A DNA stretch of 64,000 nt from an uncultured Flavobacteriaceae bacterium (lineage in GTDB: Bacteria > Bacteroidota > Bacteroidia > Flavobacteriales > Flavobacteriaceae): the NCBI GenBank assembly GCA_947494565.1, contig CANLVG010000009.1, positions 186,001 to 250,000 on the forward strand, read 5' to 3'. Of this stretch, positions 37,734-40,019 are shown piece after piece. A program made the position numbers and the translations under genes. The stretch's first letter is position 1. The number at the start of each line of letters is the position of its first letter. The notes beneath the pieces are model-generated. The model ran no database searches, was not told the DNA's origin, and saw only the letters and a list, made by a program, of their open reading frames with translations.

Positions 37734-39314
37734 TTAATTTTTACTGTATGTTGCCTGAATACGATCGATTTCATCTTTGAAATGTTGATAATCGGTTTCT
37801 CCGATTCTGGTTTTGATTCGGTTGAGAAACTCCAAGAGTTTCTGATGCTCTTTGTCGGACAGTACTCCGTCGTCCAATGATACATAAATCAAGTCTTCGA
37901 AATGATTTCTAGCTTCTTTGGCAATTTCTATTCTTCTCGTCTTGTCATAGAAATATTGATAGAAAAAAGTCGCCTCTTCATAGCTTATCTTTTTCTTTAG
38001 GGCCAAGTGGTCGACACTATGCTTGATGTCATCGATTTCATTCGAAATAGTATCATAATCCTTTGTTTTCGATTCGAATTCCCGAAACAGTTTGTTGACC
38101 ATAACAATCTGCTCCGATATGATTTTTTCCCTTCGCTTGAAAATGAAGAAGCTTGAGAGGGCCGATATGATAATAAAGGAGAGCCCCACGATAAATTCGG
38201 TTAAAAAACCTTTTTCCTCCAGATTTTTGAATTGAGTGCTAAAAAAGTTACTGCCCGATAATTTTCCTTCATTCTTGACGGCATATTCAATGGGTTGCAA
38301 ATCGGCCCGAACCATCTCATTTCTAGGCGCGAAACTGTTTACATGGGCCACAAAGTAATCAAGTAGCGGATTCATATCGTTCTTATCGTATAATTTCCTA
38401 AGATTACTCCATTGCCCAACGGTGTAGCTTTTGTTGAACTTCTCGGAGATGATCTGGTTGGCTCTATTGAAGGTGTATACGAAGGGTTTCGCTTTAGCCG
38501 ATTCGGATAAGGGTTGCTGTTTATCGCTCAATTTCCCTCGAAGATAAAAGATAAGTTCAGTATCGTCCGGTTCGATACGATACAGTTTTCCTATCCTGCG
38601 GTAATGGTCTTCTGTCAGCAGCACTTTGGCATTTGGAATCACATGTGCTACCGATATCATGTGAAAGTTGGGAGGAATTACAATCGTCTTGCCGCCAATT
38701 TGGGCATGTACATCCCGATCATATAATTTGTACCACAATTTTTGACCAAAAAAAGTTTCCGGTTCTATTTTATGAATATCATTGAAGACCATGACGAATT
38801 TTTCATCTGGATTTGCCAGACAACGTTCAAAAAAATCAAGGAGTAAGCCTTGTTTCCATACCCCGTTGACTTCTTCACCAATAAATTGGCGATGGTATTC
38901 CATATCGAAGTTCACAGCGCCAAAAACACGCAGCATATGAGATTCATCCGTAGCTATGAATCTTGCTAGGCGATCGATCAAGGTTGAGGTTCCACTGCCT
39001 ATAACGCTTGAAAATACCGCAAATCTGTTTTGGACCACCTCTTGGGTATAGTACTGAAATTTTGAAAATTCAACAGAGGGTATAAAAGGATTGGCCAAGC
39101 GAGTCCTAATATCCTTTTGAGTGGCTGGCCTACCGTGTATTTCTTCAAATAGTATTGCGGTAGAGTCTTTCGCCTTTGCCAAAGTCAGGTATTGCGCATC
39201 TAGTTTGGGGCCCATTCCTATCCAAGCGGGATCCACCCTGTTGCTACTGCCTAGGTATATAAACACTACAATGCCCAATAAAGACAGAAAGAGAAAGCCG
39301 TATTTTTTTTTCAT
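37734..39314 (-). CDS. Two-TM protein with degenerate McrB-like AAA+ domain, probably extracytoplasmic
   Basis: This 526-residue protein (ATG at 39314) begins MKKKYGFLF, followed by a membrane helix (7-22), a large domain (about 50-360), a second helix (373-392) flanked by KRREK, and a charged helical tail (400-526). The large domain follows the McrB-type AAA+ order. A P-loop-like IGSGTSTL (105-112) has no lysine, FVMVFNDIHKI (173-183) replaces Walker B hhhhDE with Asn-Asp, and IGGKTIVIPPNFHMISVAH (206-224) matches the strand and sensor-1 region of McrB. YRRIGKLYRIEP (238-249) sits where the arginine-rich region ends. Charges put both termini inside, hence the AAA-like part outside. It is monocistronic. 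The frame extends to 39386, but that start would precede the anchor by 24 odd residues. Function unknown. Confidence 0.7.
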   Translation of the reverse strand: MKKKYGFLFLSLLGIVVFIYLGSSNRVDPAWIGMGPKLDAQYLTLAKAKDSTAILFEEIHGRPATQKDIRTRLANPFIPSVEFSKFQYYTQEVVQNRFAVFSSVIGSGTSTLIDRLARFIATDESHMLRVFGAVNFDMEYHRQFIGEEVNGVWKQGLLLDFFERCLANPDEKFVMVFNDIHKIEPETFFGQKLWYKLYDRDVHAQIGGKTIVIPPNFHMISVAHVIPNAKVLLTEDHYRRIGKLYRIEPDDTELIFYLRGKLSDKQQPLSESAKAKPFVYTFNRANQIISEKFNKSYTVGQWSNLRKLYDKNDMNPLLDYFVAHVNSFAPRNEMVRADLQPIEYAVKNEGKLSGSNFFSTQFKNLEEKGFLTEFIVGLSFIIISALSSFFIFKRREKIISEQIVMVNKLFREFESKTKDYDTISNEIDDIKHSVDHLALKKKISYEEATFFYQYFYDKTRRIEIAKEARNHFEDLIYVSLDDGVLSDKEHQKLLEFLNRIKTRIGETDYQHFKDEIDRIQATYSKN

Positions 39315-39731
39315 GGTGTTCCGATGAGAAGAACTTTTGGTTAGCGGTAAGCACCTTTCGCCAGTAAAATAGGTAATTTTTGGCAAACCTGAAACCCAGA
39401 CTGGGTTTGTTTAAGTAGTAGCTGTGAAAAGGTTTTCTGTAATATCTGAACCAGCTCTTCCCTTAGCTGCCTGAAAATGCGAAGAGTTAATTTCTTTCCA
39501 TTGGACAACTATCTTTTTCTGAAGGGTGTCAGGGTACTATATTCCTCGGAAAAACCCGGATAAAAGACGGGTCTTATCGGTAAGGTGTTTCTAAGGGTCA
39601 AAACGTTTATCGACACTTTTTTACACTTTGTCCTGATTTTTACACCATATCGAATAGAATTGACATTCAGCGAGTTATGAAGAGTTCTGTGCCTTTGACG
39701 GGGTTATCTTAGTATCACCCAAATACAAGTC
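39315..39731. other. 417-bp intergenic region with a perfect 17-bp palindrome
   Basis: No gene, tRNA or rRNA is visible here. It holds AAACCCAG-A-CTGGGTTT (39392-39408), 78 bp upstream of the McrB-like gene, and a TATTTTAC box on the minus strand near 39370 that could be its promoter. The plus-strand side upstream of the 95-residue protein gene has TTTG at 39694-39697 but no good -7 box. The remainder shows nothing I recognise; part could be leader RNA. Confidence 0.5.
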
Positions 39732-40019
39732 ATGAAACCTATTTTAACCATTTTGTCAGTTATCGTATTCGGAACTTCAGCTTTGGCCAATTCGGGTAAA
39801 GTAACATCCGATGTCCACCCTCAAATCGAAGCGTATGAACAAGTTACAACCCTTAAAATGGATAGTCTATTGGATAGTGGCATTGTTATTGCTTCCTATA
39901 ATAATGAAGTTGAGTTTGCGAATAAAAAAAGGATTGCACGTCTATACAAATTCAAGAATTCGAGAATCAAGAAAGCATTGACATTCACAACGAAAAGAAA
40001 CAAAGCCAGAATGGCATAA
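39732..40019 (+). CDS. Small exported protein of unknown function
   Basis: This 95-residue protein has a clear signal peptide (MKPILTILSVIVFGTSALANS). The mature part of about 75 residues starts acidic and polar and ends strongly basic (KNSRIKKALTFTTKRNKARMA). No domain is recognised. The gene is followed by a 36-codon frame and then a strong terminator, so the two probably form a short operon. The acid-to-base charge split suggests binding to an envelope polymer or self-association, but this is only an inference. Confidence 0.7.
   Translation: MKPILTILSVIVFGTSALANSGKVTSDVHPQIEAYEQVTTLKMDSLLDSGIVIASYNNEVEFANKKRIARLYKFKNSRIKKALTFTTKRNKARMA

Follow-up and report, generated by a model that had tools for sequence, protein, structure and literature searches.

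A gene for a two-helix protein with a McrB-type AAA+ core

The window analysed here is a 64,000-nucleotide stretch of the genome of an uncultured Flavobacteriaceae bacterium. On its minus strand, one frame (P0001, 37734..39314) stays open from an ATG at 39314 to a stop ending at 37734 and encodes 526 amino acids, and translation of one plus-strand frame across the same stretch gives many stops. A longer frame starting from a TTG at 39386 is possible. We regard that start as less likely and favour the ATG because the MKKK it opens with sits at the same point in the orthologue of a second species, G002. As this full-length orthologue and four other full-length relatives exist, the gene is not a chance frame.

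The protein consists of two hydrophobic helices flanking a domain of about 350 residues, followed by a charged helical tail. Hydropathy analysis (19-residue Kyte-Doolittle window) gave two clear peaks, 2.10 for TM1 (residues 6-24, 39243..39299) and 2.45 for TM2 (residues 374-392, 38139..38195), with the next at about 1.05, in line with the membrane anchoring proposed in the initial annotation. MKKK precedes TM1 and KRREK follows TM2. Between the helices, all on the minus strand, lie a linker (residues 25-95, 39030..39242) within the fastest-evolving part of the protein, a McrB-type AAA+ core assigned by profile and alignment (residues 96-245, 38580..39029), and a helical part that is probably lid-like (residues 246-370, 38205..38579). 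The core carries a degenerate Walker A motif (SVIGSGTST, residues 103-111, 38982..39008), a degenerate Walker B motif (VMVFND, residues 174-179, 38778..38795), a sensor-1 region (MISVAHVIP, residues 219-227, 38634..38660) and a retained arginine pair, R239 R240 (38589..38600). The charged C-terminal region (residues 393-526, 37737..38138), predicted from its composition to be cytoplasmic, includes a helical hairpin with a DDG motif that resembles part of TerB (residues 468-512, 37779..37913). Every motif quoted in the initial annotation was present in the translation: MKKK, GSGTST (residues 106-111), FVMVFNDIH, GGKTIVIPPNF, RRIGKLYRIEP, KRREK and DDGVLSDKEH.

Relatives of the window protein are few and scattered

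The G002 orthologue (record CANNCA010000005.1, uncultured Flavobacteriaceae) is full-length, 80% identical to the window protein and shares its motif losses. Among the 14 genomes of the genus, five of which are less than 90% complete, full-length copies were found in the window genome and G002 (one copy each), and none in the other 12. In a third species, G013, a 64-codon C-terminal remnant with a stop lies between the same neighbours.

Four full-length relatives (G647, G1091, G1428 and G1460) were found in another class of the phylum. They have the same layout and charge pattern but intact GxxGxGK[ST] and LDD motifs; the G1460 sequence is interrupted by a run of N near the C-terminus. Identity to the window protein is 23-30%, and identity among the four is 33-80%.

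These members emerged from searches of overlapping genome sets, in which some genomes were searched more than once. A single-sequence search of 397 genomes of the bacterial family returned the window gene and nine weak rows, and a three-row profile (A2) run against 345 genomes of the window's class returned the window gene and one weak AAA match. Searching 395 genomes of the phylum added only G647. A set of 294 genomes gave G1091 and G647, and one of 123 gave G1428, G1460 and G1091, four McrB-like matches being set aside in each; the order of G647 (164 genomes) gave G647 itself and McrB matches in two genomes. The nine weak matches of the family search and two of the genus search (E 4e-4 to 0.1) were dropped as non-members: L013 and L014 are histidine kinases by eye, L008 and L010 are TerB-like (L008 above the Pfam cut-off, L010 just below it), and L004-L007, L009, L011 and L012 were rejected on short, weak alignments alone. 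The best reading of these searches is that the protein family is small and patchily distributed.

The domain is related to McrB and has lost its nucleotide site

A profile search against McrB and other AAA+ proteins, suggested in the initial annotation, supported its assignment to the McrB type. The single window sequence matched McrB weakly in the PDB (E 0.028). Family profiles matched it at 5.9e-9 (three rows, A2), 6.2e-12 (four rows, A3; next Hsp104, 0.024) and 5.3e-11 (six rows, A6; next best 0.015), and McrB was the only strong PDB match of the six-member profile. We also compared the family by hhalign with a 12-row McrB alignment drawn by motif filter from L021-L023, L025-L029 and L034-L037 (11 distinct genes, with L026 and L034 the same gene; by eye, L021 and L022 adjoin McrC-like ORFs). 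The six members aligned at 98.9% over 230 columns, the four with intact sites at 98.6%, and the window protein with G002 at only 88.9%. Pfam cut-offs were passed by G1428 (AAA_5) and, just, by G1091 and G1460 (AAA), and by none of G647, G002 and the window protein; the last had nothing above threshold in Pfam or NCBIfam.

According to the description in PMC10602043, the McrB-type clade is marked by two successive arginines near helix 4/strand 5 and by two beta-hairpin inserts, one in helix 2 and one before sensor-1. R239 and R240 are invariant in all six members and align with McrB R348/R349, the arginines discussed in PMC6624300. The two stretches where these inserts would lie align with McrB by sequence. 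So does, in all six members, the block matching McrB IGHSYF (GQWS, residues 300-303, in the window protein). In a tree with eight McrB proteins (L021, L029, L034 and L036 left out; L029 was seen by its P-loop only), the six members separated with support 100. A long branch (1.47 substitutions per site, support 100) leads to the window/G002 pair, and branching among the intact-site members is less certain (88 and 63).

The six-member alignment bears out the reported loss of the Walker A lysine and Walker B aspartate. The four relatives have GVxGxGK[ST]T as Walker A and LDD as Walker B; the two Flavobacteriaceae members, the window protein and G002, have SVIGSGTST (Lys to Thr) and FND (Asp to Asn). 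Eight McrB rows compared have DE in six cases and EE in two. PMC6344862 states that oligomerisation of E. coli McrB was affected when the Walker B Asp was replaced by Ala or Asn. The McrB signature NxxD, which PMC11090510 ascribes, in this or the shortened form NxD, to all McrB-like GTPases, is absent from all six members; the Asn position is taken by a sensor-1 histidine that is invariant in the six (His224). As the site is intact in McrB and in four members, the simplest reading is a loss in the window's lineage. The window domain probably does not bind nucleotide. The S. aureus protein PcdA is reported in PMC10602043 to be a weak NTPase despite degraded motifs, but it has kept the Asp.

Genomic context

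Seven of the eight window neighbours tested encode ordinary Pfam families (M24 peptidase, PLD, S51 peptidase, WYL regulator, glyoxalase, amidohydrolase and histidine kinase), and one has no Pfam match. No operon partner is shared among the flanks examined at the window/G002/G013 locus, G647, G1091/G1460 and G1428. In three of the four intact-site genomes, a neighbouring gene on the same strand encodes a protein that by eye looks exported, which counts in favour of an extracytoplasmic AAA domain; none of this type was seen at the window, G002 or G647 loci, which counts against it. In G1091 and G1460 these neighbours encode Glu_cyclase_2 proteins and lie upstream, at distances of 24 and 13 bp; in G1428 an ORF of 203 aa (L128 5900-6511) overlaps the downstream end of the AAA gene by 4 bp. 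This ORF has a signal-like N-terminus and no Pfam match, and its overlap is of a kind suggestive of translational coupling.

McrC (PF10117) was found in G647, G1091 and G1428 (three of the six genomes), each time on a contig other than that of the family member, while the window genome, G002 and G1460 gave no match; this model detected McrC in one of 14 control genomes, so a divergent McrC could be missed. The window genome has 22 AAA_5 matches. Among 15 such loci compared, seven match the McrB profile (best 7.6e-11) and none the family profile.

A defence or phage origin was considered and set aside, as the window protein had no match in plasmids or phages. With the relatives L024 and L016 as queries against plasmids and L024 against phages, no record covered 80% of the query; the matches listed (best 20 of 94, best 20 of 174 and 12 of 12) were partial, mostly over the P-loop part, and belonged to AAA, DUF3578, VirB11, CobS, hypothetical or unannotated proteins. 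Pattern-based scans of IMG/VR found no relative, and PADLOC gave weak matches, the best (9.8e-5) over the P-loop of L024.

The C-terminal tail resembles part of TerB

The suggestion that the tail might be TerB-like holds for one helical hairpin with a DDG motif, which hhalign aligned with TerB at 89% over 43 columns, but not for a full TerB domain: no TerB model in Pfam matched the window protein at E up to 10, and the PF05099 gathering score was not reached. The TerB set comprised 10 rows taken from 12 loci, with L050 and L051 removed by the motif filter; eight rows are distinct genes, as L008/L044 and L010/L045 are the same. Searching 59 genomes with the tail gave matches (E up to 0.01) in 14; one of these, L047, was discarded as it covers a TetR-like ORF by eye. 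Separately, the window genome encodes a 143-aa TerB-like protein (L053 1240-1671), with similar ones in other genomes of this search.

In PHROGs, phrog_3989, of unknown function, weakly matched the tails of G1091 (2.1e-4) and the window protein (0.019). The tails alone, with the L024 tail searched in phages as a follow-up to this match and the window tail in plasmids, gave nothing significant.

Predicted topology and the alternative orientation

Counts of K/R near the membrane favour an N-in/C-in arrangement in all six members (7:3, 7:4, 8:1, 8:4, 6:4 and 11:4), although for TM1 alone G1428 has two before and three after. As a prediction, this agrees with the initial annotation, which had used the charge pattern to place the AAA domain outside the cytoplasm. 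The sign of the count is a weak test, being the same in 16 of 19 two-helix ORFs of the stretches examined, five of which are members. A canonical P-loop between the helices occurs in only three of these 19 ORFs, all three of them family members.

We then scored composition with two classifiers of modest quality (cross-validated AUC 0.80 and 0.85), whose training sets were defined by home-made signal-peptide and hydropathy rules: 115 exported-type and 88 cytoplasmic proteins from the window genome and one G002 stretch, and 117 and 116 from the other class, all counted before removal of family members. The AAA loop of the window protein scored P(ext) 0.33 and 0.25, and the six members spanned 0.09-0.80; 15 AAA+ controls, presumed cytoplasmic, spanned 0.06-0.64 and 0.01-0.55, overlapping this range. 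The C-terminal region scored as cytoplasmic in all six members with both models (P(ext) 0.00-0.11, one tail being incomplete), matching the cytoplasmic location first proposed for it, although a charged coiled tail may score this way regardless.

The periplasm is described as lacking ATP in PMC7391070 and PMC11366764, and the initial annotation had reasoned that motif loss would fit such a compartment. This argument does not account for the family, because four relatives of the same layout and predicted topology have kept their motifs, with P-loops intact. Either the family would have worked outside with nucleotide, or the charge rule would be misleading for all of it. A literature search for periplasmic or extracytoplasmic AAA+ domains, with most subscription journals outside its scope, found no paper.

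These intact sites are one reason to weigh the opposite orientation, in which the AAA domain would be cytoplasmic with both tails outside. The window protein would then be a cytoplasmic pseudo-NTPase like PcdA, and its intact relatives ordinary membrane-tethered NTPases. The composition of the AAA loops, which does not look clearly exported and scores mostly inside the span of the AAA+ controls, points the same way, and PMC10602043 provides a precedent in describing PcdA as a degenerate McrB protein that works with FtsZ and DivIVA at the division site. However, this orientation would put the basic clusters MKKK and KRREK/RKRKKK outside, against the total K/R counts of all six members, and would export a charged tail that scores as cytoplasmic in every one of them. 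We consider it doubtful, though a serious competitor.

A proposed membrane receptor or scaffold built on a pseudo-enzyme

The account we prefer, to which we give an even chance, is that the window protein acts in the membrane as a receptor or scaffold, and that its McrB-like domain, extracytoplasmic by the predicted topology, became a pseudo-enzyme. A McrB-type AAA+ domain would be exported between two inner-membrane helices, with the C-terminal, partly TerB-like region staying in the cytoplasm. In the window's lineage, loss of the site would mean that the domain no longer binds NTP in the usual way or cycles as a motor. It may have been retained outside as a pseudo-AAA scaffold or as a domain that senses a ligand or partner, and the presence of ligand or partner, or the oligomer state, could be passed through the helices to the cytoplasmic tail. 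What is hard to reconcile with this account is the intact P-loop of four of the six members, under the same predicted topology, in a compartment free of ATP. A wider reading takes those members at face value. Bacteroidota and their relatives may possess an AAA+ family that works outside the cytoplasm, with some members binding nucleotide and the Flavobacteriaceae branch turned into a pseudo-AAA receptor; such a family would be to bacteria what torsin is to the ER lumen. We put this forward tentatively.

A different role for the dead domain would be to lend its retained arginines to an active AAA+ partner, in the manner of LAP1/LULL1 with torsin or of the clamp-loader delta-prime subunit, precedents described in PMC5425593. 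R239 and R240 have indeed stayed invariant where two members lost the Lys and Asp, and the AAA_5 proteins of the window genome could supply cytoplasmic partners if the topology were inverted. The single family copy in the window genome and G002 leaves no active paralogue, and neither genome yielded McrC. None of the AAA_5 loci compared matches the family profile. We know of no active extracytoplasmic AAA+ partner, and regard this role as improbable.

Comparison of the window gene with G002 bears on whether the protein is still maintained. Over the whole gene, dN is 0.131 and 82% of synonymous sites differ, a divergence that allows no reliable whole-gene ratio (the ratio for residues 1-95 is 0.197). 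By part, dN is 0.265 for residues 1-95, 0.088 for the AAA core, 0.149 for residues 246-370, 0.103 for TM2 and 0.083 for the tail; the neighbouring VOC and YafY genes have 0.100 and 0.061. The dead AAA core is thus constrained about like the adjacent VOC enzyme and less than YafY; taken whole, the gene changes faster than either neighbour. The orthologue shares the motif losses, yet on these comparisons the AAA domain is under purifying selection, so this is not simply decay. That the protein is functionless and on its way out after loss of the site, as the G013 remnant and the 12 genus genomes with no full-length copy found (in a genus with five incomplete genomes) might suggest, is very unlikely given full-length frames with identical dead motifs in two species so far apart at synonymous sites, and the low dN of the core.

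Comparison with known systems

McrB of the Type IV restriction system McrBC resembles the family in its AAA+ core and the downstream alignment, in the two arginines and in the IGHSYF-like block. The family differs in having two membrane helices and no recognised DNA-reader domain, linked McrC or NxxD, and in the window protein both Walker motifs are dead. PcdA of Staphylococcus aureus, as presented in PMC10602043, is likewise a McrB relative with degraded Walker motifs, no McrC and, by implication, a different job. It carries a pair of EVE domains at its N-terminus and retains the Mg-binding Asp, whereas the window protein has lost that Asp and has membrane helices on either side of the domain. 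The CoCoPALM McrB-like GTPases also combine a McrB-type domain with a transmembrane element, an FtsB-like fusion; they are described in PMC11090510 as NxD GTPases with McrC homologues, in contrast to the family here, which has neither NxD nor NxxD and places two helices around the domain.

LAP1 and LULL1 are similar in arrangement, being membrane-anchored, non-cytoplasmic AAA+ folds with no nucleotide motifs and with an arginine present. In the account of PMC5425593 they are eukaryotic, have a type II membrane topology and act with an ATPase partner that is known; we read torsin and its ER cofactors as a possible functional parallel. The novelty first claimed for a dead, membrane-spanning AAA sensor or scaffold must therefore be narrowed: eukaryotes have dead membrane-anchored AAA+ proteins in LAP1/LULL1 (PMC5425593), and among bacteria PcdA is a degenerate McrB recruited to a different task (PMC10602043).

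New here, as far as the sequences indicate, are the four relatives in another class that combine the same layout with intact nucleotide motifs. AAA+ machines are taken to require cytoplasmic NTP. A family whose intact and dead members share one predicted extracytoplasmic topology makes this question testable: either positive-inside prediction is wrong for an entire family, or some bacterial AAA+ domains lie outside the cytoplasm. With PcdA as the first, the family may also be the second case of a McrB domain that seems to have moved away from restriction.

Other features near the gene

A 95-aa ORF at 39732-40019 in the window, divergent from the AAA gene, has a signal-like N-terminus, a basic C-terminus and no Pfam match; it is kept in G002 and, in shorter form, in G013. 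An antibiotic biosynthesis monooxygenase (ABM) gene lies directly upstream of the AAA gene in G002 (L002 3224-3520) and of the remnant in G013 (L003 1773-2075), the identity having been assigned with PF03992 on the G002 copy only. No ABM-like ORF of at least 80 aa was found in the corresponding window gap (39315-39731). Within that gap, 77 bases before the ATG of the AAA gene, is a perfect palindrome at 39392-39408 (8-base arms, 1-base centre). It is the sole match within three mismatches in the window (0.31 expected), its single-strand fold has a z of -1.83, and it is possibly a regulator site or a hairpin.
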